A stretch of DNA of 64,000 nt from an uncultured Lacinutrix sp. (GTDB taxonomy: Bacteria > Bacteroidota > Bacteroidia > Flavobacteriales > Flavobacteriaceae). Position 1 is the stretch's first letter, and each line of letters opens with the position of its first letter. Both the position numbers and the translations under genes were made by a program. Location of the stretch: NCBI RefSeq assembly GCF_947500605.1, contig NZ_CANMSJ010000010.1, positions 62,001-126,000 on the forward strand, in the 5' to 3' direction. Below are positions 7,099 through 54,830 of this stretch, in pieces. The notes beneath the pieces were generated by a model that saw nothing but the letters and a program-made list of their open reading frames with translations, was not told the origin of the DNA and searched no databases.

Positions 7099-7851
7099 TT
7101 AATCTTTATTTTCTTTAAATATGTAATTTATTTCTGAAATCTCATTCGAAATTTCAGACGTTTCCGAGAACCATTCATTTACGGGAGATAATTCTATAAA
7201 GTTTCCGCTTTCATCAAAGTACTTTAAGAATTCATCTTCTTCATCATTATAGTCTGGTTCTTCCCATTTATATCGCTTTACTTTAACTATTTCTTTCCTA
7301 AAAATTAAAGCGAAAACTAGTCCTGCAATCAAACCTGCAGTATGTCCTTCCCAAGATATTTGTTCATCTATAGGAAAAGCATACATAAACATACTGCCAT
7401 AAATAAAAACTACTACTAACGACAAAGCGATTAGTTTATAATGTCTAGCAAATATGCCTTTGAAAAAGTTGAAACTGAATAACACATAAATTAAACCACT
7501 TGCTCCTATATGGTAAGATGGCCTACCTATTAACCATGTTATAAAACCTGAAAGCAAAATGCCATAGATTATCACTTTAAAAGCGATTGGTCTATAAAAA
7601 TAAAACAAAGCTGAAGACAGCACAAACAAGGGAACCGTATTGGAATATAAATGTTTAATACCTGAATGAATAAATGGACTAAACAAAATACCTCGTAATC
7701 CTTTTAAAGTTTGTGGATAGACACCGTACTTGTTAAAACGAAGAGCAAAACGAATTTCGATTGCAAATACCAACCAAATTAGAAGTACAAATAATAATGG
7801 ATACAAAAGAGTATCTGTCGAAAATGCAAAAGGTTGATGTTGTTTTTTCAT
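7099..7851 (-). CDS. Rhomboid-family intramembrane serine protease
   Basis: Multi-pass inner-membrane protease. Hallmarks: L1-loop/TM2 motif HLYSN (67-71), catalytic Ser118 in GASG and catalytic His170 in WEGHTAGLIAGL. At least six hydrophobic segments lie between residues 15 and 184. The tail after residue 185 is cytoplasmic-like and unusually acidic (EEPDYNDEEDEF, then many Glu/Ser). Substrates are unknown. It is convergent with rlmB, almost stop to stop, with no room for a terminator between them. Confidence 0.92.
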   Translation of the reverse strand: MKKQHQPFAFSTDTLLYPLLFVLLIWLVFAIEIRFALRFNKYGVYPQTLKGLRGILFSPFIHSGIKHLYSNTVPLFVLSSALFYFYRPIAFKVIIYGILLSGFITWLIGRPSYHIGASGLIYVLFSFNFFKGIFARHYKLIALSLVVVFIYGSMFMYAFPIDEQISWEGHTAGLIAGLVFALIFRKEIVKVKRYKWEEPDYNDEEDEFLKYFDESGNFIELSPVNEWFSETSEISNEISEINYIFKENKD

Positions 7852-7943
7852 ATTTTAATAAATATAGCAATTTATAATCCATTTATTAAAAATTGTAACA
7901 ATGTCAGTTGAATGAAGAATAGAAAGGTTTGTTTGAAATCGTA

Positions 7944-8013
7944 TTGCCTTTTTTTGGCAAAAGATCGAGTGATGAGAGCCTGACTTTTTTGTGAAGTATG
8001 AGCAAAAAAGGCA
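7944..8013 (+). other. Alternative T/A-tract hairpins upstream of rarA
   Basis: Three overlapping inverted repeats: TTGCC/GGCAA around seven T (7944-7960); CTTTTTTG/CAAAAAAG (7984-7991 and 8003-8010, loop 11); and a long-range pair TGCCTTTTTT/AAAAAAGGCA (7945-7954 and 8004-8013). The long-range pair excludes the other two. It ends 34 bases before the rarA start. No promoter consensus is evident, so whether it is transcribed is unknown. Confidence 0.4.
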
Positions 8014-8047
8014 CGCCATAAAACAAAAAAAAGATTAATTTTACTTT

Positions 8048-9325
8048 ATGAATATTCCTTTAGCCGAAAGATTAAGACCTAAAACATTAGAAGATTACGT
8101 TAGCCAGGCACATTTGGTTGGTGAAAACGGAACACTTACAAAACAAATTAATTTGGGCATGATTGCCTCGATGATTTTTTGGGGACCTCCAGGAATAGGA
8201 AAAACAACACTTGCAAATATTATTGCAGAAACATCTGGCAGACCATTTTATACATTAAGTGCTATTAGTTCGGGTGTAAAAGATGTGCGTGATGTAATAG
8301 AAAAAGCCAAACAAAGTGGTGGTTTGTTTACTACTAAAAACCCTATACTTTTTATAGATGAAATACACAGATTTAGCAAGTCTCAACAAGATTCTCTTTT
8401 ACAAGCTGTAGAAAAAGGATGGGTTACTTTAATTGGTGCAACTACCGAAAATCCTAGTTTCGAGGTTATTCCTGCTTTATTGTCACGCTGTCAGGTTTAC
8501 ATTCTTAAACCGTTTGATAAAAACGATTTAGAGGTGCTTTTAAAACGTGCTATAGAAACTGATGCCGAAATATCTAAGAAAAATATAAAGCTTAAAGAAA
8601 CCGATGCATTACTAAGGCTATCTGGCGGTGATGCAAGAAAATTATTAAATATTTTTGAGCTTATTGTAAATTCTGAAGCTTCTAACAAAGTAACAATTAC
8701 TAATGAGCTCGTTTTAGATAAGGTACAAAACAATACTGTGCGTTACGATAAAACTGGAGAACAGCATTATGATATCGTTTCGGCGTTTATAAAGTCTATT
8801 CGTGGTAGCGACCCAAATGCTGCCGTGTATTATTTAGCACGAATGGTTGAAGGAGGAGAAGATGTAAAATTTATTGCTAGACGTTTACTTATTTTGGCTA
8901 GTGAAGATATTGGAAATGCTAATCCTACGGCATTAGTAATGGCAAATACTACATTTCAAGCTGTTACTACTATTGGTTACCCGGAATCTCGTATAATATT
9001 GAGCCAATGTGCAACGTATTTAGCCTGTTCTCCTAAAAGTAATGCTGCGTATATGGCTATTGGTCATGCTCAACAATTAGTTAAGCAAACGGGTGATTTA
9101 TCTGTGCCATTAGCAATGCGAAATGCGCCTACCAAACTTATGAAAGAGATTGGTTATGGTGAAGATTATAAATATTCTCATGATTATGAGAACAGCTTTG
9201 CCTCTCAAGAATTTTTACCTAAAGAGATTGTTAACACAAAACTTTATAATCCTGGTGACAATGCTAGAGAAAAAGCACAGCGCGATTTTTTAAAATCGCG
9301 CTGGAAAGAAAAATATGGTTACTAG
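8048..9325 (+). CDS. rarA: Replication-associated recombination protein A (RarA/MgsA, AAA+ ATPase)
   Basis: AAA+ ATPase related to clamp-loader subunits and eukaryotic WRNIP1; it acts at stalled replication forks. Visible: Walker A GPPGIGKT (46-53), Walker B LFIDEIH (101-107), sensor 1 [11 protein letters not shown] (130-140), arginine finger region ALLSRCQV, then the MgsA C-terminal tetramerisation domain ([37 protein letters not shown]). 425 residues is the usual length. ATG at 8048 begins [11 protein letters not shown], the standard family start. Single gene between oppositely oriented neighbours. Confidence 0.97.
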
Positions 9326-9343
9326 TTTTAAATTTTATATAAA

Positions 9344-10186
9344 CTAAAACTTGATGTTTACAATTTTTGTTTGCAGGATTTCATTTTTGTAATATTCTAA
9401 TATCCAGTTTGCATCTAACTTATATAATATTGCATTTTCACCTTCAACTAAATAAACATTAGACATACCAGTTTCTTTTATATTGTAAACCACTTTTGGT
9501 GTACTATCTACTAGTTGAAATCCGTTTTCTATTTTTTGTGCATATAAAACATCTACTCTCTTAAAAGTTTCTGGCGATGGAGAAACAGCAACTATTTCTT
9601 TAGCTTTAGCCACTACTACATCTTCTACTTTAGATTCTTTAACAACTACTTCCTTTTCGTTTTTTAAGTTTTCTATTTCTTCTTTTAACATCTTAATCTC
9701 CTCTTGCTCTTTAGCTATATCTGGCGTATTACTCTTTAATAAAAGCATATTTTCGGGATTATAACTATAATTAGCACTTTCAATACTTTTAAACGCATTT
9801 CTTAACGCTTGATTATAGGCAATTTTAAAATTTTTATCTCTAGATTCACCTTCTGTACTTGTAAAAACAACTTGATTTTTACAATTTGTTAATTGTACAA
9901 CTAACTTTGTTTTAAACATTGTAGATTCCTTTAATAGATTTGCTTTTAAACCAAGACAGTTATTTTTCGCGTAGTCACTTGGTAAAACTTCATCTTCTAT
10001 TAAGGCTTCGAAATTATATTTTTCGAATAGAAATTTTGTTAATGAATTTAATCTATACTGATCTGCTTCTTTTAAGAAATCGAACTTATTTGGAATAATA
10101 ATATATTTATAATCGTTTAAGCTTTGTTGTGCTGATACTGATGTAAAAGCGATTAAAGCAAGTAAAATTAAAACTGTTTTTTTCAT
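9344..10186 (-). CDS. Secreted protein with central coiled coil, function unknown
   Basis: 280 residues with a clear Sec signal peptide (LILLALIAFTSVSAQ, cleavage near residue 19). Residues about 165-195 form a Glu/Lys coiled coil (EEIKMLKEEIENLKNE). The first half contains YKYIIIPNKFDF and FLFEKYNFEAL, features of small Flavobacteriaceae periplasmic proteins I cannot assign to a named family. The C-terminus is beta-rich (NVYLVEGENAILY, ILEYYKNEILQTKIVN). The gene is 8 bases downstream of the HAD nucleotidase and probably co-transcribed with it. Confidence 0.72.
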   Translation of the reverse strand: MKKTVLILLALIAFTSVSAQQSLNDYKYIIIPNKFDFLKEADQYRLNSLTKFLFEKYNFEALIEDEVLPSDYAKNNCLGLKANLLKESTMFKTKLVVQLTNCKNQVVFTSTEGESRDKNFKIAYNQALRNAFKSIESANYSYNPENMLLLKSNTPDIAKEQEEIKMLKEEIENLKNEKEVVVKESKVEDVVVAKAKEIVAVSPSPETFKRVDVLYAQKIENGFQLVDSTPKVVYNIKETGMSNVYLVEGENAILYKLDANWILEYYKNEILQTKIVNIKF

Positions 10187-14433: not shown

Positions 14434-15789
14434 CTACCCAATAACCGCCTGCAAAGCCTCAAAATCCAATCCACCATAATTACCAGAACTCATTAATAAT
14501 AATGCTTTATCTTCAAAATTCTGAGAGAATAAAAAGTCTTTAAATTCCTCTGGATTAGTATAGATAATTAAATCGTTGCGCTCGAAAGCACTAGCTATTT
14601 GTTCTTTTGTAACTTCTTCAAGCTTTTTAATTTCTACTGCATGAGGAGAATAAAAAACAACGGCAACATCGGCAGCATCAAGTGCGCCTTTGTATTCTTT
14701 TAAAAACTCAGCATTTAAACTACTATAAGTATGTAATTCTAGACAAGCAACTAACGTACGGTTTGCGTACTGCTCTTTAACAGCATTTGTAGTCGCTTCT
14801 ACTTTACTTGGTGAGTGTGCAAAATCTTTGTAAGCAACACTGTTTTTGCTTTCTGCTATTTTCTCTAAACGTTTACTTGCACCTTTAAAAGTGGAGATTG
14901 CTTCGTAAAAATCGTCCTCATCAATTCCCATGTGTTGGCAAATCCATTTTGCTCCTGCAAGATTGTTTAAATTATGCTTCCCAAAAACCTCTATTGGCAA
15001 AGGACCTTCTGGTGTTTCTAATAATGTTTCTCCGTTTTCTACAGTATATTCTGGAGTTTGGTAAGCAATTTTTCTAATTTGGTTTTCGCTAGCTTCCACT
15101 ACTCTTTTAACCTCAGCATCTTCTTCGTTATAATTAATGCTTCCGCCTTGCACTATCGAATCTACAAAAATACTAAACTGCTCTACATAGTTTTCGTACG
15201 TTGGAAACACATTAATATGATCCCAAGCTATTCCGCTTAACAAAGCAATATTTGGTTTGTATAAATGAAATTTTGGTCGTCTATCTATTGGAGAACTTAA
15301 GTACTCGTCTCCTTCAAGAACAATAAAATCGTTCTCTTCTGTTAGTTTCACCATAACATCAAAACCTTCCAGTTGTGCACCAACCATATAATCAACATCG
15401 CGATCATGATAATGCATAACATGCAAAATCATAGAAGTAATAGTTGTTTTACCATGACTTCCACCAATTACTACTCTGGTTTTATGTTTAGACTGCTCGT
15501 ATAAAAACTCTGGGTAACTGTATATTTTTAGTCCAAGTTCTTGTGCTTTTAGCAACTCTGGATTATCCTTTTTAGCATGCATTCCTAAAACAATAGCATC
15601 TAAATTAGATGTTATTTTTTCTGGAAACCATCCAAAAGCTTCAGGCAATAAACCTTTAGTTTCTAATCGCGATTTAGAAGGCTCGAAAATAGTATCGTCA
15701 CTTCCTGTTACTTGGTATCCTTTGTTATGTAATGCTAGTGCTAGGTTGTGCATTGCACTACCGCCAATGGCTATAAAATGTACGTTCAT
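14434..15789 (-). CDS. mpl: Mpl, UDP-N-acetylmuramate:tripeptide ligase (murein recycling)
   Basis: Mur ligase that attaches recycled L-Ala-gamma-D-Glu-meso-DAP to UDP-MurNAc in the cytoplasm with ATP. Features: Rossmann-like N-domain starting MNVHFIAIGGSAMHNLAL, ATP P-loop GGSHGKTT (109-116), LEGDEYLSS and HNLNNLAGA of the Mur central domain, and DFAHSPSKV in the C-domain. 451 residues is normal. The Mpl-type N-terminus (GGSAMHNLA rather than the MurC pattern) supports Mpl over MurC. A TATCTTTG promoter box lies about 20 bases upstream. Confidence 0.93.
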   Translation of the reverse strand: MNVHFIAIGGSAMHNLALALHNKGYQVTGSDDTIFEPSKSRLETKGLLPEAFGWFPEKITSNLDAIVLGMHAKKDNPELLKAQELGLKIYSYPEFLYEQSKHKTRVVIGGSHGKTTITSMILHVMHYHDRDVDYMVGAQLEGFDVMVKLTEENDFIVLEGDEYLSSPIDRRPKFHLYKPNIALLSGIAWDHINVFPTYENYVEQFSIFVDSIVQGGSINYNEEDAEVKRVVEASENQIRKIAYQTPEYTVENGETLLETPEGPLPIEVFGKHNLNNLAGAKWICQHMGIDEDDFYEAISTFKGASKRLEKIAESKNSVAYKDFAHSPSKVEATTNAVKEQYANRTLVACLELHTYSSLNAEFLKEYKGALDAADVAVVFYSPHAVEIKKLEEVTKEQIASAFERNDLIIYTNPEEFKDFLFSQNFEDKALLLMSSGNYGGLDFEALQAVIG

Positions 15790-15808
15790 GTTCTTATTTT
15801 GAAGTATT

Positions 15809-15816
15809 CAAAGATA
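15809..15816 (-). promoter_or_regulatory. Bacteroidota-type -7 box for mpl
   Basis: Reads TATCTTTG on the minus strand, an exact TAnnTTTG match, 20 bases upstream of the mpl ATG. A clear TTG -33 element was not found. Confidence 0.55.
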
Positions 15817-15891
15817 GTAATTGATAGCTGAATTTTGAAGTGAATTTTATAGTTGTTTTATATATGAAATAAAAATATGCATTCCATGTTA

Positions 15892-15973
15892 CTTGTCATT
15901 CAGAAGGAGGAGCGACTTAAGAATCTTTAATCACCTAAACAAAGAGATTCTTCGCTGCTCTCTGAATGACAAG
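15892..15973. repeat. Hairpin repeat, array unit 1
   Basis: Outer arms CTTGTCATTCAGA (15892-15904) and TCTGAATGACAAG (15961-15973) are perfect complements of 13 bases. Inner arms GAATCTTT and AGAGATTC also pair approximately, so the whole unit is an imperfect inverted repeat. Confidence 0.9.
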
Positions 15974-16050
15974 CATTATACAAAAGTACTCTATAAATCT
16001 CAACGTAACCTCAACGAAAATAAGTGTTATAAAAACAAACTCTCATGCCA

Positions 16051-16130
16051 CTTGTCATTCAGAAGGAAGAATGACTGAAGAATCTTTAATCACCTAAAAA
16101 CAAGATTCTTCGCTGCGCTCTGAATGACAA
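16051..16130. repeat. Hairpin repeat, array unit 2
   Basis: Same unit as 15892-15973. Arms TTGTCATTCAGA (16052-16063) and TCTGAATGACAA (16119-16130) pair perfectly; inner AAGAATCTT pairs with AAGATTCTT. Confidence 0.9.
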
Positions 16131-16212
16131 AACAAAGACTACAAAAAGTACTCTGTGAATCTCTGCTTAACTTCAGCAAAACTAAGTGTTATAAAAACAA
16201 ACCCTCATGCCA

Positions 16213-16293
16213 CCTGTCATTTAGAAGGAAGAATGACTGAAGAATCTTCAACCATCTAAAAAACAAGATTCTTCCCTGCGTTCTAAATGACAG
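16213..16293. repeat. Hairpin repeat, array unit 3, with compensatory changes
   Basis: Arms CTGTCATTTAGAA (16214-16226) and TTCTAAATGACAG (16281-16293) pair perfectly. Compared with unit 2, two positions changed in the left arm (T to C, C to T), and the two partner positions in the right arm changed to match. Confidence 0.9.
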
Positions 16294-23849: not shown

Positions 23850-24151
23850 AATTCCTTTGAAAAAAGGAATCTCAGACTATGGAACCCTTATTACATACTT
23901 TCAGTTACACTGAGATTCACAGAGCTAACAAAGAGTTTACACAAAGAAAACACAGAAAGCTTTAAAATAACTCATGAACATTTGTCATTCCTGCGAAGGC
24001 AGGAATCCATTTTATCGTTATGCATTATAGATTCCTGCCTTCGCAGGAATGACAAATAGATGTAAGCTCAAACATAAGTTAACGACCAAGGAAAGCAATT
24101 AGATAGAATATAATCCTTAACTTTAAGTACTAACCAAAAACAAATAATATT
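23850..24151. other. 302-base intergenic region with hairpin, CTCTGTGAATC-like element and a REP pair
   Basis: Holds, in order: a hairpin ATTCCTTT/AAAGGAAT (23851-23870, no T-run, so a weak terminator at best); a segment around 23910-23960 whose reverse complement reads CTCTGTGAATCTCAGTGTAAC and resembles the spacers of the array at 15.9-16.3 kb; and a perfect REP-like pair (23981-24056). No promoter with both elements was identified for the downstream DoxX gene. Confidence 0.75.
23981..24056. repeat. REP-like palindromic pair, reference copy
   Basis: Left arm 23981-24007 and right arm 24030-24056 are perfect 27-base complements separated by 22 bases. The left arm starts TTTGTCATTCCTGCGAAGG and ends GAATC; the right starts GATTCCTGCC and ends GGAATGACAAA. 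Each arm is itself a small palindrome (ATTCCTGC-gaag-GCAGGAAT). This is the only full copy in the window outside the kynurenine cluster. Confidence 0.95.
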
Positions 24152-45367: not shown

Positions 45368-46636
45368 GTGTCAAACTATAATTTAGGTAGCGACTTCGCT
45401 AAGCAATTAGACAAAGAAGATAAAATTTCGCATTACAGAGATCAATTTCATATTCCAAAAGATAAAGACGGAAACGATTGGTTATACTTTACTGGTAACT
45501 CTCTTGGTTTGCAACCAAAAGCTACAAAAGAATACATTCAACAAGAATTAGACGATTGGGCAAATTTTGGTGTAGAAGGTCATTTTGAAGCCAAAAACCC
45601 TTGGATGCCTTACCATGAATTCTTAACAGAATCTATGGCGAAAGTCGTTGGCGCAAAACCTATTGAAGTAGTTATAATGAACACCTTAACTACCAATTTA
45701 CATTTGTTAATGGTTAGCTTTTATCAGCCTACAAAAACCAAATACAAAATTGTAATTGAAAGTGATGCGTTTCCTAGCGATCGTTATGCAGTACAAACAC
45801 AATTAGAATTTCATGGCTTTGATGCAAATGAAGGTGTTATAGAATGGAAGCCAAGACAAGGCGAAGAACTTTTAAACATTGAAGACTTAGAAACGATTCT
45901 TGAAGAACAAGGAGACGAAATTGCATTGTTACTTATTGGAGGTGTAAACTATTACACAGGACAATATTTAGACATAAAGAAAATTGCAGAACTTGGTCAT
46001 GCTAAAAACTGTATGGTAGGTATCGATTTAGCACATGGTGTTGGAAATATCAATCCAGATTTTCATGAGTCTGGAGTAGATTTCGCAGCTTGGTGTACAT
46101 ATAAATATTTAAATTCTGGACCAGGAAGTTTAGGAGGTCTTTTTGTGCACGAAAAACATGCACATAATAAAGACTTAAAACGCTTTGCTGGTTGGTGGAG
46201 CCATAATAAATCGACTAGATTTAATATGAGACAACCATTAGACGTTATTCCTGGAGCCGAAGGTTGGCAACTTAGTAATCCTCCAATTTTATCTATGGCA
46301 GCAATTAAGGCTTCTTTAGATATGTTTAATAACGTTGGAATGGATGCACTTCGTGAGAAGTCTGAAAAGTTAACAGGTTATTTTGAGTTTTTAATTAACG
46401 AGCTGAATAACGATAAAATTAAAATTATCACACCATCTAACCCGAAAGAAAGAGGATGTCAATTATCCATACAAGTAAAGGATGCTGATAAAAATTTACA
46501 TAAAAAATTAACCGAAGCAAATATTATTACAGACTGGAGAGAACCAGATGTAATACGTTGCGCTCCGGTGCCGCTATACAATACCTTTGAAGATGTGTAT
46601 AGAATGGTTGATAAGTTGAAAGAGATATTGAATTAA
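45368..46636 (+). CDS. kynU: Kynureninase
   Basis: PLP enzyme that cleaves kynurenine or 3-hydroxykynurenine to (3-hydroxy)anthranilate and alanine. GTG start (MSNYNLG). Motifs: FTGNSLGLQPKATKEYI, substrate loop, AHGVGN, Schiff-base Lys246 in CTYKYLNSGPG, and FAGWWSHN. 422 residues is normal. The stop codon is followed on the next base by a REP-like repeat that fills the entire gap to kmo. Confidence 0.97.
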   Translation: MSNYNLGSDFAKQLDKEDKISHYRDQFHIPKDKDGNDWLYFTGNSLGLQPKATKEYIQQELDDWANFGVEGHFEAKNPWMPYHEFLTESMAKVVGAKPIEVVIMNTLTTNLHLLMVSFYQPTKTKYKIVIESDAFPSDRYAVQTQLEFHGFDANEGVIEWKPRQGEELLNIEDLETILEEQGDEIALLLIGGVNYYTGQYLDIKKIAELGHAKNCMVGIDLAHGVGNINPDFHESGVDFAAWCTYKYLNSGPGSLGGLFVHEKHAHNKDLKRFAGWWSHNKSTRFNMRQPLDVIPGAEGWQLSNPPILSMAAIKASLDMFNNVGMDALREKSEKLTGYFEFLINELNNDKIKIITPSNPKERGCQLSIQVKDADKNLHKKLTEANIITDWREPDVIRCAPVPLYNTFEDVYRMVDKLKEILN

Positions 46637-46715
46637 TTTGTCATTCCTGCGAAGGCAGGAATCCATTATTAATGCAAACTAAAAAAAAGATTCCTGCCTT
46701 CGCAGGAATGACAAA
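46637..46715. repeat. REP-like palindromic pair filling the kynU-kmo gap
   Basis: Left arm 46637-46663 and right arm 46689-46715, 27-base perfect complements identical to those at 23981-24056, loop 25 bases. Begins on the base after the kynU stop and ends 3 bases before the kmo ATG. Confidence 0.96.
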
Positions 46716-46718
46716 AAT

Positions 46719-48116
46719 ATGAGTAAAAAAGAAAACATAGTAATCATTGGAGCTGGACTTTGTGGCTCTCTCTTAGCATTACGTTTAGCCCAAAGAGGCT
46801 ATACAGTAAACGTTTACGAAAGCAGACCAGATTTACGTACAACAGATATTTCTGCAGGACGTTCTATAAATTTAGCACTTTCGGATCGTGGCTTAAAAGC
46901 CATGCGATTAGCAGGAGTTGAGGACAAAGTAAAACCATTGTGCATACCAATGTATGGTCGTTTAATACATGATATTGAAGGCAATACGTTTCCTTCAAAT
47001 TATTCTGGAAGAGATAACGAATACATTAACTCTATTTCGCGTGGAGAACTTAATGGCTTGTTATTAACTGAAGCCGACTCATATGATAACTTAACCATTC
47101 ATTTCAACAAAAAATGTAATGGAATAGATATAGAAAACAATACTGCGCTTTTATACGATTACAGAACCAAAACAGAATTTGAAGTAAAAGGCGATGTTCT
47201 TTTTGGTACAGATGGCGCAGGTTCTTCATTAAGAAAAAGCTATTATTTAGAACGCAAATTCTTGTTTAGCTACTCGCAAAATTACTTAACTCACGGTTAT
47301 AAAGAATTAGAAATCCCTGCTTCCGCAGATGGAAAACACCTTATAAGTAAAGATTATTTACATATTTGGCCAAGAGGAGATTACATGTTAATTGCACTTC
47401 CTAATTTAGATGGAAGCTTTACAGTAACACTATTTTTAAGTTATGAAAAAGGCAAATACAACTTCAAAAACTTAACAACAGAAGAAACCATAAACGAATT
47501 CTTTGTAACACAATTTCCAGATGCGTTAGCATTAATACCAAATATAGCAGACGAGTTTTTTAACAACCCAACTGGTGCCTTAGGAACAGTAAAATGTTCA
47601 CCTTGGCATTACAAAAACAAAAATGTTTTATTAGGAGATTCTGCACATGCTATTGTTCCTTTTTACGGACAAGGTATGAATGCATCTTTTGAAGATGTAA
47701 CCGTTTTCGATGCGATTTTAGATAAACACGAAGGCGATTGGGAAACTATTTTTAAAGTTTACGAAAAAACTAGAAAAGCAGATACAGATGCCATTGCAGA
47801 TTTAGCAATAGACAATTATTACGAAATGCGTGATCATGTTGCTAATCCTATTTTTAAAGAAAAACGTACTATTGAAATGGCTTTAGAAAAAGAATTTCCA
47901 AACGATTATTTTTCAAAATATTCTATGGTAACTTTTAAAGAAGACATTCCGTATCACGAAGCTATGACAAAAGGAAGAGCACAAGACAAAGCTATTTTAA
48001 ATTTATTAGTAAATAAAGAAATTACTACAACCGAAGATTTAAATAGTATCTTAAAAAAAGTACAAGAAGAAACCGAAGCGATTTTGCAAGATGATAAGAT
48101 TGCTGGATTGAAATAG
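46719..48116 (+). CDS. kmo: Kynurenine 3-monooxygenase
   Basis: FAD- and NADPH-dependent hydroxylase making 3-hydroxykynurenine. FAD dinucleotide motif GAGLCG (10-15) with acidic strand end VYESRPD, GRSINLALSDRG, second FAD motif GDSAHAIVPFYGQGMNASFED, and long C-terminal helices. 465 residues. The ATG lies 3 bases beyond the right arm of a REP pair, so its ribosome-binding region is inside the palindrome. Confidence 0.97.
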   Translation: MSKKENIVIIGAGLCGSLLALRLAQRGYTVNVYESRPDLRTTDISAGRSINLALSDRGLKAMRLAGVEDKVKPLCIPMYGRLIHDIEGNTFPSNYSGRDNEYINSISRGELNGLLLTEADSYDNLTIHFNKKCNGIDIENNTALLYDYRTKTEFEVKGDVLFGTDGAGSSLRKSYYLERKFLFSYSQNYLTHGYKELEIPASADGKHLISKDYLHIWPRGDYMLIALPNLDGSFTVTLFLSYEKGKYNFKNLTTEETINEFFVTQFPDALALIPNIADEFFNNPTGALGTVKCSPWHYKNKNVLLGDSAHAIVPFYGQGMNASFEDVTVFDAILDKHEGDWETIFKVYEKTRKADTDAIADLAIDNYYEMRDHVANPIFKEKRTIEMALEKEFPNDYFSKYSMVTFKEDIPYHEAMTKGRAQDKAILNLLVNKEITTTEDLNSILKKVQEETEAILQDDKIAGLK

Positions 48117-48118
48117 GC

Positions 48119-48207
48119 CTGTCATTCCTGCCTTCGCAGGAATAACAAAAAGAAAGAAGAAATTAAGCTAACATTAAAAAGATTCCTGCCTTCGCAGGAA
48201 TGACAAA
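48119..48207. repeat. REP-like pair in direct orientation between kmo and the RidA gene
   Basis: Left element 48120-48147 reads TGTCATTCCTGCCTTCGCAG and on to GAATAACA, so its centre is CCTTCG instead of the usual CGAAGG. Right element 48181-48207 is identical to the standard right arm. Both therefore carry the same orientation of the core, unlike the inverted pairs elsewhere. Starts 3 bases after the kmo stop and ends 1 base before ATG 48209. Confidence 0.9.
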
Positions 48208-48208
48208 T

Positions 48209-48613
48209 ATGGAAGGAACAAAGGTAACACCAAGAGGAGCATATCCACACGTAAAACAAGTGGGCGATTTTATTTTCGTTTCAGGAACAAGTTCTCGTAG
48301 AGCAGATAACACAATTGCTGGAGTTGATATTATCGACGAAATGGGAACAAAAAAACTAAACTCCTACACACAAACACAAGAAGTTTTAAAAAACATAGAC
48401 ACCAATCTTAAAAAAGTTGGAGCCAGTTTAAAAGACGTTGTAGATGTTACTTCATTTTTAGTAAACATGAATGACTTTGCAGATTACAACAAAGCTTACG
48501 GTGAATTTTTTGACAAAGAAACCGGGCCAACCAGAACAACTGTTGCAGTACATCAATTACCGCATCCCGATTTAGTGGTGGAGATTAAAGTTATGGCTTA
48601 TAAGAAGTCTTAA
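48209..48613 (+). CDS. RidA-family 2-aminomuconate deaminase
   Basis: 134 residues, RidA/YjgF fold ([79 protein letters not shown] with the conserved Arg and Glu). In this context it fits the 2-aminomuconate deaminase branch (AmnD/NbaF type) rather than generic enamine deaminase, converting 2-aminomuconate to 4-oxalocrotonate plus ammonia. ATG 48209 is preferred; the in-frame ATG at 48200 belongs to the repeat's GAATGACA end. Function assignment rests on context plus family. Confidence 0.88.
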
Positions 48614-48614
48614 C

Positions 48615-48639
48615 TGTCATTCCTGCGAAGGCAGGAATC
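48615..48639. repeat. Solo left REP arm after the RidA gene
   Basis: TGTCATTCCTGCGAAGGCAG then GAATC, identical to the standard left arm and 1 base after the RidA stop. There is no right arm within 100 bases; the nearest candidate is the decayed copy at 49333-49359, on the far side of a lipoprotein gene. Confidence 0.93.
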
Positions 48640-48664
48640 TCATTAACGAAACGAAATTTTTAAT

Positions 48665-49306
48665 TTGAAAATAGCTTTTAAATATTTATCTGTAATAATT
48701 CTACTGATTTCTATTTCTTGTGAAAAAGAGAAAAAGTTAGTTACTAAAGAAATTGAAACACCAATTATTACTGAAGAGTTTAAATTGAATTTTTTAGATG
48801 AGATTTTAAGTAATAAAGGAGATGAATATTTATATCCTTATGATTACAAGAACCCTTACTTAATGTTTCAGACTTTTGAATATACTGGAAATACAGATAT
48901 TATTTATCATAAACGAATGGGTAAGCCATCAACTTTTCCTGAATTCATTAATTCTTATTTCAAAAGCATTGACACAACTTTTATTATCAGTCAATTGAAA
49001 GAAAATAAAAGTTTAGATGTGTATAAACTTTCAGAAAAAGGATACAACATTATTGATTGGTCTAAAATTAATTATTATGATGGAGTAAAAGAAATTAAAT
49101 TAGTTTCTGAAGATTCAATTCAAAAATTGAGAGATGAAAATGAAAAAGAAGGACAATTGATGTTAGGTAAACCTATATTTAATAAAAAACTAAATAAAGC
49201 TTATATTTCTATGGGATATTTTATGTCTCATGGATATCAGTTACTTTATAAAAAAGAAAGTAATAAATGGATTTTAGATAAAACGATTATGGAATATGTC
49301 AATTAA
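48665..49306 (+). CDS. Lipoprotein of unknown function, placed between two REP halves
   Basis: 213 residues, TTG start at 48665 (MKIAFKYLSVIILL), lipobox SISC (C19) followed by EKEKK. Mature part is Lys/Glu/Tyr-rich with no family I recognise (YLYPYDYKNPYLMFQTFEYTG, MGYFMSHGYQLLYKKESNKWIL at the end, reminiscent of small immunity- or stress-type lipoproteins). More AT-rich than its catabolic neighbours and without obvious link to kynurenine metabolism. It interrupts the RidA-aldehyde dehydrogenase pair and looks like an insertion. Confidence 0.75.
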   Translation: MKIAFKYLSVIILLISISCEKEKKLVTKEIETPIITEEFKLNFLDEILSNKGDEYLYPYDYKNPYLMFQTFEYTGNTDIIYHKRMGKPSTFPEFINSYFKSIDTTFIISQLKENKSLDVYKLSEKGYNIIDWSKINYYDGVKEIKLVSEDSIQKLRDENEKEGQLMLGKPIFNKKLNKAYISMGYFMSHGYQLLYKKESNKWILDKTIMEYVN

Positions 49307-49315
49307 AAAACTGTC

Positions 49316-50782
49316 ATGAAAAAAGAAAATGAGATTCCTACCTTCACACGAATTAAAAACTACATAAACGGAGAATTCCACAATCCAACACAAGACAACT
49401 GGATAGACAACTATAATCCTAGTAATGGAGAAGTTTACGGACAAATTCCAAACTCGTCAAAAGAGGATGTAGAAAATGCATATATCGCTGCAAAATCTGC
49501 TTTTCCTAGTTGGTCACAAACTAGTATCGAAGAACGTAGTAGAATACTAATAAAGATTTCGGAGTTAATAGAAGCCAATTTACAACGCTTCGCGGAAGCA
49601 GAAAGTAAAGACAACGGAAAACCAATTAGCTTAGCAAAAGCAGTAGATATACCAAGAGCAGCAAGCAACTTTCGTTTCTTTGGAAATGCAATCACACAGT
49701 TCGCTAGCGAAAGTCACGAAAGCGTTGGACAAGCCATAAATTACACTTTACGCCAACCCATTGGCGTTGTAGGTTGTATTTCACCTTGGAACCTTCCACT
49801 TTATTTATTTACATGGAAAATCGCTCCAGCAATTGCAGCAGGAAATTGCGTAGTTGCTAAACCAAGCGAAGTCACACCAATGACCGCTTATTTATTAGGT
49901 GAGATTTGTAACGAAGCAGGACTCCCAAAAGGTGTTTTGAATATTGTACATGGTTTAGGAGGTTCAACTGGACAAGCCATTATAGAACATGAAGACATAA
50001 AAGCAATTAGCTTTACAGGAGGAACAGCAACAGGAGCGCATATTGCAAAAGTAGCAGCTCCAATGTTTAAAAAACTATCGTTAGAATTAGGAGGCAAAAA
50101 CCCAAACATCATTTTTGCAGATTGCGATTATAATGATATGTTAGACACAACAGTACGCTCATCATTTGCCAATCAAGGACAGATTTGTTTATGTGGCAGT
50201 CGCATTTTTGTGGAAGCATCTATTTATGAGAAGTTTAAAAAAGATTTTATTAAAAAAGTGAAGGCTTTAAAAGTTGGTCATCCATCTGAAGCGTCAACTA
50301 ATATTGGAGCATTAGTATCCAAACCACATATAGAAAAAGTAAAAGAATATATAAATATCGCTAAAGCGGAAAACGGAACAATACTCTGTGGAGGAAATGA
50401 AGTGACTGTAAAAGGTTATGAAAACGGTTACTATCTAGAGCCTACAGTTATTGAAGTTCCAAACGATGAATGCAGAGTGAACCAAGAAGAAGTTTTTGGA
50501 CCTGTAGTTACCATTATGCCTTTTAATACGGAAGACGAAGTCTTAAAAATGGCAAATAAAGTAAAGTATGGTTTGTCTGCAACACTATGGACCAACAACT
50601 TAAAACGCACCATGAAAATGAGTAACGAGTTACAAGCTGGAATAGTTTGGGTTAACACTTGGATGATGCGCGATTTGCGTACACCTTTTGGAGGTGTAAA
50701 AGCTTCTGGTGTTGGACGCGAAGGAGGTTTTGAAGCTTTACGCTTTTTTACTGAAGCTAAGAATGTTTGTATTAAATATTAG
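49316..50782 (+). CDS. 2-aminomuconate 6-semialdehyde dehydrogenase (aldehyde dehydrogenase family)
   Basis: 488-residue NAD-dependent aldehyde dehydrogenase. ISPWNLPLYLFTWKIAPA, AKPSEVTPMT, NAD loop FTGGTATG, catalytic Glu in LELGGKNPNIIF, catalytic Cys291 in NQGQICLCGSR, EVFGPVVT, and PFGGVKASGVGREGG. The CLCGSRIFVE pattern and the kynurenine context support the aminomuconate/hydroxymuconate semialdehyde subgroup. The first dozen residues (MKKENEIPTFTR) precede the usual IKNYING start and appear derived from a REP arm. Confidence 0.92.
   Translation: MKKENEIPTFTRIKNYINGEFHNPTQDNWIDNYNPSNGEVYGQIPNSSKEDVENAYIAAKSAFPSWSQTSIEERSRILIKISELIEANLQRFAEAESKDNGKPISLAKAVDIPRAASNFRFFGNAITQFASESHESVGQAINYTLRQPIGVVGCISPWNLPLYLFTWKIAPAIAAGNCVVAKPSEVTPMTAYLLGEICNEAGLPKGVLNIVHGLGGSTGQAIIEHEDIKAISFTGGTATGAHIAKVAAPMFKKLSLELGGKNPNIIFADCDYNDMLDTTVRSSFANQGQICLCGSRIFVEASIYEKFKKDFIKKVKALKVGHPSEASTNIGALVSKPHIEKVKEYINIAKAENGTILCGGNEVTVKGYENGYYLEPTVIEVPNDECRVNQEEVFGPVVTIMPFNTEDEVLKMANKVKYGLSATLWTNNLKRTMKMSNELQAGIVWVNTWMMRDLRTPFGGVKASGVGREGGFEALRFFTEAKNVCIKY
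49333..49359. repeat. Decayed right REP arm inside the aldehyde dehydrogenase start
   Basis: GATTCCTACCTTCACACGAA and seven more bases match the standard right arm at 22 of 27 positions. It lies in frame within codons 6-15 of the aldehyde dehydrogenase gene, encoding IPTFTRIK. Confidence 0.7.
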
Positions 50783-50792
50783 TCTATTAAAA

Positions 50793-52124
50793 ATGAGAAA
50801 AGTAATATTTGTATTCATACTAGTTTTATGTAGTTGCTCTAGAGAAGATAAAACAGATAAGGCGCTTTTAGAAAAAGATAAACAGGCACTTATTGAAAGC
50901 CTAGATGCAGGAAAAGTAGCAGGTTATAAGTTTGGTAAAATATTAATTAGAGCATCTGCAAAGAAGGACTCTACCTTTTATTCGCAAGAAGAAACTAAAA
51001 TAGATGCAGAAGAATTTATAAAGTTTAAAACCAACTTAGATAATACATTTAAAAAACTAGAGAAGCTAAGTAAAAATGAAGAGCTCTCAGTTTTAGAGTA
51101 TATTTCTATATATCGCGATTATAAAAAAATGCAAGATTTTATAATGGAAACAGATGAAGATTTGTTCCCAACACTAACCGAAGCATTAAATAATACATAT
51201 GGAAATTCATCTCAAAACGAACCTTATTTAACAGGACTTAAAAAGAAAGAAGCAGAGGCTTTTGAGCATGCTATTTTAAGTGCAATTGTTTTATTAAGTA
51301 AAGATTTGGGTAAAGAAGTTGCTTTATATGAATGTTCAAAAACACAACCCGAATTTTTAGCAGATTCAGAACTTAAAACACTTATTCAATATTTTAGAGG
51401 TTTTGTTTTTTTTGAAAAAGGATTAAACTACCTTTCTGAAGATGAGATTACCAGAAATATAAATTGGCTCGATGAGAATCAAGATGTAGATCTACCTTTA
51501 ACAAGAGCAATGTTTAAATGGGGAAATTTAGATAACAAACAAACGCATATTGGTTTTCATTCTATAAATCATCTATTCAGAGGTTTTGATAGACTTATGA
51601 TGGATAGAGAAATAGATGAGCAACGAGCACTTGAAGATTTTGAGGTGTTTTTATCCGATTCAAAAAAATTAGGAGTAGACAATGAAGTTGTTTGGTCTAT
51701 TGAAACTTATTTATATCTTAAAAATGAAGACAACGAAAAAGCAATAGCATCTTTACAAAAATTAAAAACAAGTGTATTTGTATCTAGTAGTGATAAAGCC
51801 AATATTGATGAGTCGATAGGCTATTTAAAAAATAGAGAACCAGACAAAGTATTAAATGGTTTTTACGATAAATATTTTTTAAGTAAAATAGCAACAAAAT
51901 ATATCTTTTCAATATTATCTGCTATTGATTGGGAAAAAGTATTAATTGAAAACGATGTTTCGCATACCAAAGAAATTTTTGAAATGATAGAGACTTTAAA
52001 AACACTATCACAAAAAATAGACGATCAATTAAGCGGTAAAGCATTAGAAGAAGCAGGTAAATCGTTAAAAGATAAAAGTAACAGCCTGTTTAATAAAGCA
52101 AAAGGACTATTTGATGATGAGTAA
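50793..52124 (+). CDS. Lipoprotein of unknown function
   Basis: 443 residues from ATG 50793, which gives a lipoprotein signal (KVIFVFILVLCSC, followed by SREDKTD); the open frame extends back to 50709 inside the dehydrogenase gene but the ATG is far better. Helix-rich, Lys/Glu-rich protein with TPR-like stretches (FRGFVFFEKGLNYLSEDE, ALEDFEVFLSDSKKLG, KNEDNEKAIASLQKLK) and an amphipathic C-terminus (EEAGKSLKDKSNSLFNKAKGLF). No named family recognised. It starts 10 bases after the dehydrogenase stop with no REP between, and a decayed REP pair follows. Confidence 0.75.
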   Translation: MRKVIFVFILVLCSCSREDKTDKALLEKDKQALIESLDAGKVAGYKFGKILIRASAKKDSTFYSQEETKIDAEEFIKFKTNLDNTFKKLEKLSKNEELSVLEYISIYRDYKKMQDFIMETDEDLFPTLTEALNNTYGNSSQNEPYLTGLKKKEAEAFEHAILSAIVLLSKDLGKEVALYECSKTQPEFLADSELKTLIQYFRGFVFFEKGLNYLSEDEITRNINWLDENQDVDLPLTRAMFKWGNLDNKQTHIGFHSINHLFRGFDRLMMDREIDEQRALEDFEVFLSDSKKLGVDNEVVWSIETYLYLKNEDNEKAIASLQKLKTSVFVSSSDKANIDESIGYLKNREPDKVLNGFYDKYFLSKIATKYIFSILSAIDWEKVLIENDVSHTKEIFEMIETLKTLSQKIDDQLSGKALEEAGKSLKDKSNSLFNKAKGLFDDE

Positions 52125-52149
52125 CTTAGTTTCTTAAATAAAACAAAAA

Positions 52150-52236
52150 TGTAACCTCCAGAATAGACGAGAGATTTACAAATAAAAAAATAATTAAATT
52201 AACATTAAACAGATTCCTGTCTACGCAGGAATGACA
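52150..52236. repeat. Diverged REP-like pair upstream of the SDR gene
   Basis: Right arm 52212-52236 (GATTCCTGTCTACGCAGGAA then TGACA) matches the standard arm with two changes. Left arm around 52150-52177 is badly decayed but keeps TGT...TAGAC, matching the TAGAC expected opposite GTCTA. The loop shares TTAACATTAAA with the 48.1 kb copy. ATG of the SDR gene is 5 bases further. Confidence 0.75.
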
Positions 52237-52241
52237 GAAAT

Positions 52242-53024
52242 ATGGATTTACAACTTAACAACAAATACGCATTAGTTTGTGGAAGTACAGCAGGAATAGG
52301 AAAAGCAACAGCAATGGCTTTAGCCGAAGAAGGTGTACAAGTAACACTTATTGCTAGAAATGAAGATAAATTAAAAGCAACATTAACCGAGTTACCTCAA
52401 CATAGAAATCACGATTACATAGTTGCAGATTTCTCTAATCCTTCGGAATTAAAATATAAAGTGTCAAAATATGCATCTAACCATCATGGCTTTCATATTT
52501 TGGTAAATAATACTGGCGGACCAAAAGGAGGACCAGTTTTTTCTGCTCACGTAGATGAATTTGAAGCAGCTTTTACACAACATTTAAAATGTAACCATGT
52601 ATTAGCACAAGCGGTTGTTCCGTTTATGAAAAGCGAAGGATTTGGTAGAATTATAAATGTAATCTCAACGTCAGTTAAACAGCCTTTAGATGGTCTTGGA
52701 GTAAGTAATACTATTCGTGGTGCAGTTGCCAATTGGAGCAAAACCTTAGCTAACGAACTTGGGCAATTTGGCATTACTGTAAACAATGTTTTACCAGGAG
52801 CTACAGGAACAGATCGTTTGGCTGAAATTATTAAAAACAAATCGGCTAAATCAGGAAATACAGAAGAGGAATCTGCAAACGCCATGAAAAGTGCCGTACC
52901 TGCAAAACGTTTTGCTAAACCAGAAGAGTTAGCAGATGCTATTACCTTTTTAGCAAGTGAACGCGCAGCTTATATTAACGGAATTAATCTTCCAGTTGAT
53001 GGAGGAAGAACGAAAAGTTTGTAA
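52242..53024 (+). CDS. SDR-superfamily protein lacking the catalytic Tyr and Lys
   Basis: 260 residues, Rossmann fold: cofactor motif CGSTAGIG (13-20), ARN (38-40), NNTGGP (89-94) and Ser142, all at SDR positions. At the catalytic spacing (Ser +13, +17) it has Ser155 and Arg159 (SNTIRG) in place of Tyr and Lys. That matches an atypical beta-ketoacyl-reductase-like SDR group, not a standard dehydrogenase. The C-terminal cofactor/lid part is intact (YINGINLPVDGG). Placed between the dehydrogenase region and the dioxygenase, it probably serves the kynurenine pathway, but its reaction is unknown. Confidence 0.9.
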   Translation: MDLQLNNKYALVCGSTAGIGKATAMALAEEGVQVTLIARNEDKLKATLTELPQHRNHDYIVADFSNPSELKYKVSKYASNHHGFHILVNNTGGPKGGPVFSAHVDEFEAAFTQHLKCNHVLAQAVVPFMKSEGFGRIINVISTSVKQPLDGLGVSNTIRGAVANWSKTLANELGQFGITVNNVLPGATGTDRLAEIIKNKSAKSGNTEEESANAMKSAVPAKRFAKPEELADAITFLASERAAYINGINLPVDGGRTKSL

Positions 53025-53081
53025 TATCAAACTTGATTTGATATCTTATAAATTGAAAAGTAATTATTAACTTTATAGCAC

Positions 53082-53154
53082 TTTGTCATTCCGCACTTGA
53101 TGCAGAATCCAAAATAAGTAAAGTGTTAACTAGATTCCTGCTTACGCAGCAATA
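53082..53154. repeat. Hybrid REP-like pair upstream of the dioxygenase gene
   Basis: Left arm 53082-53109 starts TTTGTCATTCCGCACTTGAT and ends GAATC, a different core from the others. Right arm 53133-53154 (GATTCCTGCTTACGCAGCAA) is the standard type with changes. The outer and inner ends still correspond but the cores do not pair well. Confidence 0.75.
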
Positions 53155-53169
53155 AAAAAAGATTATACG

Positions 53170-53706
53170 ATGAGTAAATTATTTCCACCTATAAATTTTA
53201 AAGCTTGGATAGAAGAAAATAGACATCTTTTAAAGCCACCTGTTGGTAACAAAGTGGTGTGGAAAGATGGTGATTTTATTGTTATGGTTGTTGGTGGACC
53301 TAATAATAGAAAAGATTATCATTATAATGAAACTCCTGAGTTTTTCCATCAAATTGAAGGTGATATTATTTTAAAAGTAATTGAAGACGGCACTCCAAAA
53401 GACATACATATAAAAGAAGGCGAAATATTTCTATTACCTCCAAAAGTACCGCACTCACCACAACGAGGAGCTAATACGGTTGGATTAGTAATTGAATATC
53501 CTAGAGACAAAGGAGTACAAGATGCATTATTGTGGTTCTGCGAAAACTGCACAACCAAATTATACGAAGAGGACTTTACTGTAAAAAATATAGAAACTGA
53601 TATGCCAAAAATATTCGATAAATATTATGGTGATCAAGACAAACGTACTTGTCCTAATTGTAGCGAAATAATGCAACCACCTTCGAAAGTTAAATTAGAT
53701 AAATAA
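53170..53706 (+). CDS. nbaC: 3-hydroxyanthranilate 3,4-dioxygenase
   Basis: 178-residue cupin opening the ring of 3-hydroxyanthranilate to ACMS (2-amino-3-carboxymuconate semialdehyde). Iron ligands His51 and Glu57 (YHYNETPEFFH) and His95 (VPHSPQR); substrate-binding Arg47 and Arg99. The C-terminal rubredoxin-like iron site is complete: Cys124-Cys127 (CENC) and Cys161-Cys164 (CPNC), as in bacterial enzymes. Followed by ACMS decarboxylase gene after 41 bases. Confidence 0.97.
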   Translation: MSKLFPPINFKAWIEENRHLLKPPVGNKVVWKDGDFIVMVVGGPNNRKDYHYNETPEFFHQIEGDIILKVIEDGTPKDIHIKEGEIFLLPPKVPHSPQRGANTVGLVIEYPRDKGVQDALLWFCENCTTKLYEEDFTVKNIETDMPKIFDKYYGDQDKRTCPNCSEIMQPPSKVKLDK

Positions 53707-53721
53707 AAACCAACCTTTAAA

Positions 53722-53744
53722 GATTCCTGACCTCTCAGGACATA
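53722..53744. repeat. Degenerate right REP arm before the ACMSD gene
   Basis: GATTCCTGACCTCTCAGGA matches the standard arm at 16 of the first 19 bases, then diverges (CATAATT). It ends 3 bases before ATG 53748. No left arm is visible in the 15 bases after the dioxygenase stop. Confidence 0.65.
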
Positions 53745-53747
53745 ATT

Positions 53748-54830
53748 ATGAAACGTAAACTTAGAATTAACGGTCACTCACATCTATTGCCTTATCCAGA
53801 GGAAATCCCTCAGTTTATGCAAGACAAAGAAATTTTTTGGGTAGATAAAGATCGAAAATTCATGCTTCAAAAAGATTGGAACAGACCAATTACAGATTCT
53901 AGTTTCTTTTTAGATGAGAAATTAGCTTGGATGGAACGTTTTAAAATTGACCATGCCGTAGTTTTAAACTTATCGCAATTATACGGTAACGGTTTACGTG
54001 TGGAAGAAATGAAGCAGGCACTTAAATTTCAAAACGATTTTAATGCCAAAGTGCAGCGCGAAAACCCAAGTAAGTTTACTTGTGGTTTTGTAGTACATCC
54101 TGGTTTTGTACGTGGTGCTTGCTGGGAAATAGAACGTTGTGTAGAAGAGTTAGGTATGCAATTACTTTGTTTGCCAACCCACTACATGGATACTATTGGA
54201 ACTTGGCGTTGTATTTTTGATGAAGAAAACGAGCCTATTTTTGAAATGGCTAACAAGTATAATTTGGCTGTAGAAATACATCCTTACGATGGTGAGAAAT
54301 TTATAAAATTAGAAAACACGTCTTGGCGTTTTCATTTAATATGGATGTTAGCACAATGTGCAGATGCATACCACTTTTTAACTTTAAACGGTTACCAAGA
54401 TAAATACCCAAATATGAGAACTTGCTTTGCTCATGGTGGACAATTAGCACAAATAAATTTAGGACGACGTATTCAAGGTTTCGATGGAAGACCAGATTTA
54501 TTTGAAGGTAAAAGTCACCCAAGAAAAGCGGTTGGACATAAAAATATCTTTTTCGATACTTTAGTACACGATACTGGAGGATTAGATTTATTATTAAAAA
54601 ACCAAGGTTCTAAACAAGTTTTAATGGGACTTGACGATCCATATCCTTTAGGAGAAATGGAAAGCGAGAAACAAAGTTCTTATCCTGGAAAAATTTTAGA
54701 TTTAGCAATAGACCGAAAAATTATTACAGAACCAGAACGTGATGCTATTTGGGAAGATAACGTAATCCAATGGTTATGCGGAGACGACCAAGCTGCTAAA
54801 GATAAATTGGTAAAACGAATTTTAGGTTAA
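53748..54830 (+). CDS. 2-amino-3-carboxymuconate-6-semialdehyde decarboxylase (amidohydrolase)
   Basis: 360-residue TIM-barrel amidohydrolase of the ACMSD type. Zinc ligands His10 and His12 (NGHSH), His178 (EIHPYD), catalytic His229 (FAHGGQ), Asp296 (GLDDPYPLGE, compare GTDYPFPLGE in known ACMSD). It decarboxylates ACMS to 2-aminomuconate semialdehyde, steering flux away from quinolinate/NAD. Adjacent to the dioxygenase and in line with the dehydrogenase and deaminase genes. Confidence 0.94.
   Translation: MKRKLRINGHSHLLPYPEEIPQFMQDKEIFWVDKDRKFMLQKDWNRPITDSSFFLDEKLAWMERFKIDHAVVLNLSQLYGNGLRVEEMKQALKFQNDFNAKVQRENPSKFTCGFVVHPGFVRGACWEIERCVEELGMQLLCLPTHYMDTIGTWRCIFDEENEPIFEMANKYNLAVEIHPYDGEKFIKLENTSWRFHLIWMLAQCADAYHFLTLNGYQDKYPNMRTCFAHGGQLAQINLGRRIQGFDGRPDLFEGKSHPRKAVGHKNIFFDTLVHDTGGLDLLLKNQGSKQVLMGLDDPYPLGEMESEKQSSYPGKILDLAIDRKIITEPERDAIWEDNVIQWLCGDDQAAKDKLVKRILG

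Follow-up and report, generated by a model that had tools for sequence, protein, structure and literature searches.

We analysed a family of palindromic repeats at the gene junctions of the kynurenine (kyn) operon in an uncultured Lacinutrix sp., a marine flavobacterium. The window, meaning the whole stretch of DNA analysed, comprises 64,000 nt (NCBI RefSeq GCF_947500605.1, contig NZ_CANMSJ010000010.1, 62,001-126,000, forward strand; G000:C10:62001-126000 in our numbering) of a 3.50-Mb genome (G000, hereafter the source genome), which is close to Lacinutrix algicola (95% kmo identity). Open reading frames (ORFs) were called with a simple longest-first script rather than a trained gene finder; the genes and repeats of the window given below by coordinate lie on its forward strand. 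The operon contains kynU (kynureninase, 45368-46636, TIGR01814 above cut-off), kmo (46719-48116), a RidA-family gene (48200-48613, PF01042), an aldehyde dehydrogenase gene (ALDH, 49316-50782), which is nearest to 2-hydroxymuconic semialdehyde dehydrogenase but below the cut-off of that model (TIGR03216), a short-chain dehydrogenase gene (SDR, 52242-53024, a broad-family match below cut-off), the 3-hydroxyanthranilate 3,4-dioxygenase gene (HAO, 53170-53706, NF009763 above cut-off) and an amidohydrolase gene (53748-54830, PF04909). The original prediction made for this DNA named kmo as an FAD monooxygenase, which its Pfam domain (PF01494) fits, and the amidohydrolase as ACMSD by position; the latter ORF gave no NCBIfam match at 1e-10. 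The palindromes are repetitive extragenic palindromic (REP) elements, and their dimers are polar within operons.

A search with the 25-nt REP arm detected eight matches at ≤3 mismatches in the window, six of them in the kyn operon and two at 23983-24054, and none in 100 dinucleotide shuffles. The REPs of the kyn operon comprise an intact dimer, a probably collapsed dimer accompanied by an arm, two arms standing alone and a hybrid dimer. The intact dimer, identified by arm search and fold, fills the kynU-kmo junction (46639-46713; arms 46639-46663 and 46689-46713, 25-nt spacer). It starts 2 nt past the kynU stop codon and folds at -48.5 kcal/mol (z -12.2). In the relatives L031, L036 and L039, kynU and kmo overlap, which provides the empty state for direct comparison. 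The kmo-RidA junction contains one hairpin flanked on either side by a tag-like end (48120-48147), probably a dimer collapsed by deletion, judging from the full dimer kept at this place in L089, and an arm (48181-48205) with the bases ATGACA, which overlap the RidA ORF at its first ATG (48200). The REP end GGAATGACA likewise supplies an in-frame ATG just 5' of the likely usual start not only of RidA (window 48200) but also of hisB and hisF (L103:13089 and L103:15923).

A single upstream-type arm lies 1 nt past the stop codon at the RidA-lipoprotein junction (48615-48639), and a single downstream-type arm was found by arm search between the TPR lipoprotein gene and the SDR gene (52212-52236). 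The SDR-HAO junction carries a hybrid dimer, the left arm of which (53085-53109) belongs by arm comparison to subfamily B2 (GTCATTCCGCACTTGATG..) and the right arm of which (53133-53153) is decayed; this junction folds with a z of only -1.1. A weak match at 49330-49353 is a possible decayed arm within the first ALDH codons, ahead of residue 13, where the best family model begins. The site before ALDH holds a dimer in L032 and no remnant in L089 or L031. The original prediction had placed copies or remnants of the palindrome at six kyn junctions. REPs in various states are present at five of these; the remnant assigned to the lipoprotein/ALDH junction may exist as the possible decayed arm, but it is located inside the ALDH ORF, and the HAO-ACMSD junction contains a conserved 22-mer rather than a decaying copy. 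The kynU-kmo, RidA-ALDH and ALDH-SDR junctions of kmo loci also carry unrelated small genes (lipoproteins and other short ORFs) that differ by species.

The 22-mer at the HAO-ACMSD junction is a hairpin (53719-53740) that lies 7 nt 5' of the ACMSD start and has exact matches at the same place in other genera, which rules out a decaying REP copy. At ≤2 mismatches, 14 of 299 family genomes have it, each in a single copy. In 12 of the 14 it is directly 5' of ACMSD (11 exact, one with 1 mismatch), and both copies with 2 mismatches are elsewhere. At loci with the exact 22-mer the gene always starts with ATGAAACG or ATGAAGCG; several loci without it also start with ATGAAA. The 22-mer differs from the REP arm at three of its 22 bases and may be an old captured arm.

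Beyond the kyn operon, the window contains an intact dimer at 23983-24054 (arm search and fold) and, at 15894-16293, a sister family (C) in three tandem copies, ~160 nt apart and the third decayed, with a core of its own but TGTCATTC/GAATGACA ends as in the kyn repeats. The claim that the window has only one other full copy is thus true for the kyn subfamily and leaves out the three sister-family copies.

Anatomy and family of the repeat

The 25-nt arm has four parts: the TGTC tag, a stem of 8 bp whose foot is AT, a loop of 4 nt and a short tail. Two arms in inverted arrangement, tags outward, make a dimer of ~75 bp. The stem sequences are ATTCCTGC/GCAGGAAT, and the loop is CTTC in 31 of 71 distinct arms. 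TGTC starts 28 of 36 listed dimers, partly by construction, as the tag letters are in the search pattern. The tail at the untagged end is CCA on many upstream arms and mostly CTA on downstream arms; across the listed dimers, the spacer is A-rich and the two arms mostly differ in tail, C-type on one and T-type on the other. A search of the whole source genome yielded 123 arms at ≤3 mismatches, and the backwards control yielded none. Within 677,933 bases of this genome (the window, stretches around the listed repeats and controls), 115 arms formed 77 elements, including 38 dimers; 44 elements lie between co-directional, 22 between convergent and 9 between divergent genes, and two lie inside a short ORF. 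Compensatory stem changes within the source genome were weakly indicated (5 observed vs 1.9 expected; 31 of 1000 shuffles equally good). No match to the Y1 transposase (PF01797, E ≤ 0.01), the only transposase class searched, was found in the source genome, and an Rfam scan of the window at the gathering score gave no match.

By sequence, the palindromes are TGTC-tagged REPs fitting the published CGTC-1 description in their tag, stem, loop and intergenic placement, and probably in their inverted dimers (Di Nocera et al. 2013, PMC3733652). As described there, CGTC-1 includes Neisseria dRS3, and its arm has an unpaired terminal CGTC, often TGTC, an 8-bp stem opening with AT, a 4-nt loop and a 3-nt untagged tail that is mostly CCA. 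It occurs mainly as inverted dimers, termed HH, between co-directional and convergent genes; CGTC REPs have no dedicated transposase according to the same source. The Lacinutrix repeats share the TGTC tag, the AT-closed 8-bp stem and the 4-nt loop, resemble the family in part in the CCA tail, carried by many upstream arms, and probably in the inverted dimers (38 among 77 elements), and are also alike in their dimer spacer of mostly 24-30 nt, their intergenic position, often near the upstream stop codon, and the lack of a detected transposase. The description, as far as it was accessible, does not include the dimer direction relative to transcription, the antisense terminator geometry, the concentration in kyn, his and trp operons or the re-occupation of junctions by other families.

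Other known repeats are more distant. REPINs with RAYT transposases (GTAG REPs) are likewise inverted pairs of short palindromes between genes, but the tag here is TGTC, not GTAG, and the source genome lacks a Y1_Tnp match. E. coli REP/BIME elements also form hairpins between cistrons, some ≤15 nt from stop codons (PMC12306157), and differ in sequence and tag. The Flavo-1 RNA (RF01705) is also dispersed, and in relatives it fills the SDR-HAO junction, where the window has the hybrid REP, but its sequence and structure are different.

Operon preference and turnover of junctions

In the genomes compared, the REPs preferred some operons, namely kyn, his and trp, and were neither confined to kyn nor spread genome-wide. 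In 71 kmo loci, tagged REPs occupied 63 of 448 kyn junctions vs 0 of 477 flanking co-directional junctions, and 94 of 100 tagged arms were located within the kynU..ACMSD span (534 kb), with six in the flanks (849 kb); shuffled loci yielded one arm. The original prediction had regarded the density as peculiar to a single catabolic operon. This was not the case: in the source genome, tagged REPs occupied 5/7 his and 5/8 kyn junctions, the his operon being equally full, and stretches of equal density include C1:180-184 kb (the his operon) and C1:377.6-379.5 kb. Each of its seven his spacers has a dispersed repeat in common with some other gene set, and none of 59 of its co-directional junctions in five control stretches (100 kb) was occupied.

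Operons were then compared by explicit gene sets in 19 genomes, comprising the source genome and 18 of 20 genomes picked from the 71 kmo loci (the remaining two lacked a hisB match; 17 of the 19 yielded ilv). Tagged REPs were present at 43/133 kyn, 31/129 his, 21/115 trp, 6/69 ilv and 2/94 atp junctions and at 22/871 junctions in all flanks. The kyn rate is higher here (32%) than in all 71 loci (14%) because the genomes were picked partly for kyn repeats. When all gene sets were treated alike, spacers of ≥25 nt with a dispersed repeat that was also present in another gene set made up 60-71% in kyn, his and trp (73/103, 55/91 and 38/62), more than in ilv (33%, 13/39) and atp (13%, 9/69); the count in the flanks was 89/564. 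The outcome that the original prediction had named as adverse, the same density at most operons, was seen in his and trp; atp, ilv and the flanking junctions did not show it. Outside operons, the same dimers and arms occur in tandem arrays with a period of ~190-360 bp in longer intergenic stretches (L105 ~7614-9478, L119 8743-9811, L123 8972-9680, L125 13639-14105 and L127 7035-7486).

The junctions are re-occupied by different repeat families, because all 19 kyn, his and trp junctions hold at least two families across the 19 genomes. At 15 of these 19, the genes overlap or abut (gap ≤5) in some genomes and are separated by a repeat in others. Filled states in the 19-genome table amounted to 155/359 for kyn, his and trp together, and by operon to 74/112 for kyn, 47/133 for his, 34/109 for trp, 9/68 for ilv and 2/88 for atp; detection was favoured in kyn, his and nearby loci, which had supplied the family patterns and the exemplars of F, Long, D and Flavo-1. 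Distinct family-by-junction combinations numbered 23 in kyn, 28 in his, 21 in trp, 6 in ilv and 4 in atp. The clearest case is L. mariniflava (L214), which carries family F (~110 nt) at G-D, D-C, B-H, A-F and F-IE, five of its seven his junctions; in the source genome, tagged REPs occupy three of these (D-C, B-H and A-F) and family F the other two (G-D and F-IE). A family-free count gave a similar picture, with 121 of 241 kyn spacers (25-400 nt) matching the spacer of another kyn junction (0, 0 and 1 after shuffling). The spacer is often scarcely longer than the element itself. The suggestion that the element built the junctions or targeted them repeatedly is therefore largely upheld, on account of the spacer length, the abutting and filled states and the multiple families. 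Orthologous clusters with entirely different spacers, considered adverse in advance, were found in part, in that the spacer family differs between relatives.

Flavo-1 RNA was detected at the SDR-HAO junction at L086:16052-16132, L041:14796-14882 and L048:14347-14462, and similar sequence was seen by eye in L116 (~7802-8104 and 15635-15823). Three Flavo-1 copies in the source genome run with and three against transcription, as for a dispersed repeat; PMC9723704 already remarks on its indistinct sense/antisense placement.

Dimer direction and terminator geometry

The direction of each dimer was scored from two tail bases. All assignable dimers between co-directional genes pointed with transcription, 17 of 17 in the source genome (2 unassigned) and 13 of 13 in other genomes (5 unassigned). 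Convergent dimers in the source genome were split 5:5 (3 unassigned), and divergent ones were 3:0 (1 unassigned). In G002 and in G005, which probably is the same genome as G104 (source of L089, L. algicola), 18/18 and 14/14 assignable co-directional dimers agreed with transcription; these were kept out of the 17 and the 13. Other families were also oriented (Long, 15:0; C, 15:0; B2, 24:1) or partly so (F, 42:16; Flavo-1, 23:5), in counts that retained copies inherited by several species except where flanks were identical. The one-way direction of dimers within operons is new here: no earlier account of it, or of the operon preference, was evident in a literature search covering the titles and abstract openings of one library.

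The two strands of the dimer differ in their resemblance to a terminator. Within 10 nt past the inner hairpin, the mean T count was 2.2 in the sense and 5.8 in the antisense reading (37 dimers); a T-run often comes after the downstream arm in the antisense reading, but rarely in the sense reading. In REP-bearing co-directional spacers, terminator-like hairpins were found in 14/176 (8%) on the sense and 74/176 on the antisense strand, vs 228/1314 (17%) and 199/1314, respectively, in REP-free spacers. Terminator-like arms elsewhere were antisense in 80/196 and sense in 4/196. Three REP-made terminator-like sites are present in the kyn operon, all on the minus strand and none in the sense direction. 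Sense-strand intrinsic terminators were thus ruled out as the identity of the REPs, by the 8% vs 17% and by their absence among the kyn REPs. General sense-strand A-richness was ruled out as a source of artefact, and general composition as the cause of the direction, because REP-free spacers of the source genome show little A/T skew (0.38/0.36).

Persistence of the repeats

The reading that we consider fairly likely is that the REPs are slowly turning-over insertions, tolerated in certain operons and filtered by selection against terminating the operon. They would survive where harm is small, which in this clade would be the inner junctions of kyn, his and trp; tolerance would explain the choice of operon. 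The dimer is asymmetric, with a spacer A-rich on one strand, and its opposite strand resembles an intrinsic terminator, in that a T-run often follows the hairpin. An insertion in the reverse direction would cut the operon, and only the transparent direction would be retained. We infer selection against termination as the cause of the orientation from the direction together with the antisense geometry. The further proposal of the original prediction, that the element may set the relative expression of the pathway genes, is required by none of the results. Dimer direction, antisense terminator geometry and operon preference together make a concrete, testable rule for where CGTC REPs survive. If selection keeps them, they would form a class of interchangeable operon insulators; if it does not, they are markers of operon junctions where insertion is tolerated. 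In both cases, a long spacer in one of these operons should not be taken for regulatory sequence by default.

Several points weigh against this reading. A termination filter leaves the orientation of single B2 (24:1) and C (15:0) arms unexplained, families B (33:26) and B1 (36:23) show no significant orientation, and single arms of the main family have no consistent direction (18:9 in the source genome, 30:53 in others). Among the co-directional arms of the source genome (n = 82), 7 are terminator-like in the sense and 19 in the antisense direction and 56 in neither, and the kyn region has six terminator-like sites in total, not above shuffles (4.8, SD 2.3). The polarity rule was derived from the source genome and then tested elsewhere, and relatives share ancestry, so the counts are not independent; most G002 and G005 dimers are at sites common with the source genome, the new assignable co-directional ones being 3/3 and 1/1. 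Several convergent dimers lie in tandem arrays, and the 5:5 split does not represent ten independent sites. As to operon choice, the 19-genome table derives from 20 kmo loci picked by hand, partly for tagged arms, which inflates its kyn figure; five operons were compared in all, and ilv, also an amino-acid operon, has few repeats. Moreover, transcription-coupled insertion, or a role in stopping antisense transcripts, would leave the same orientation trace.

Such a role belongs to the less probable, though not negligible, explanation that the REPs are kept for function, their hairpins past stop codons slowing ribosomes, protecting mRNA or terminating antisense transcripts and thereby tuning the dosage of amino-acid operons. 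In the stretches sampled from the source genome, the first REP base is ≤15 nt from the stop codon in 25 of 47 REP-bearing co-directional spacers, a spacing at which ribosomes are reported to stall in E. coli (work cited in PMC12306157). The antisense terminator-like hairpins (74/176), the preference for particular operons and the 22-nt hairpin conserved exactly across genera before ACMSD also fit a function, but the element at each junction varies or is missing between genomes, several arms in the window are decayed and compensatory stem changes are few (5 vs 1.9 expected). A variant, which we think somewhat less likely again, is that dimers are kept as one-way elements, transparent to the operon and ending antisense transcription at each junction; the families would be interchangeable, geometry alone would matter, and the ACMSD hairpin would be a domesticated old arm at the branch-point gene of the pathway.

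Insertion could instead have been directed, with both orientation and operon choice fixed by a mobilising enzyme that acts on DNA made single-stranded during transcription or replication. That all assignable co-directional dimers follow transcription agrees with this, as does the movement via single strands of IS200/IS605 elements, relatives of REP transposases (PMC6006769). We regard it as doubtful, given that the source genome lacks a Y1 match, that 5 of 13 genus genomes have one, strong only in G001 (1.4e-36), and that arm counts at ≤2 mismatches do not track it (33 in G001 vs 99 in G000 and 83 in G005, both without a match). In addition, the atp operon is nearly repeat-free although presumably well transcribed, and a replication-strand rule would demand fork co-orientation of all these operons. 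A resident Y1 transposase as the driver in the source genome was ruled out by the missing match and the counts in the 13 genus genomes. A very improbable explanation is that the REPs are recombination seams allowing single operon genes to be swapped in from other species. Mosaic operons do exist, as in G093, where hisB is 71% identical to the protein of the source genome vs 91-93% for hisG, hisH, hisA and hisF, but agreement between the distance matrices of neighbouring genes, a comparison of low power, is no lower where repeats abound (0.51-0.78 in kyn, 0.34-0.86 in his and 0.45-0.77 in trp) than in ilv, with its few repeats (0.18-0.44), or in the nearly repeat-free atp operon (0.49-0.66).

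Within the his, ilv and atp operons of the 19 genomes, single genes diverge sharply from their operon mates, for example, atpB of G087 at 46% vs atpA at 99%. These identity differences are a sign of possible gene-by-gene replacement.

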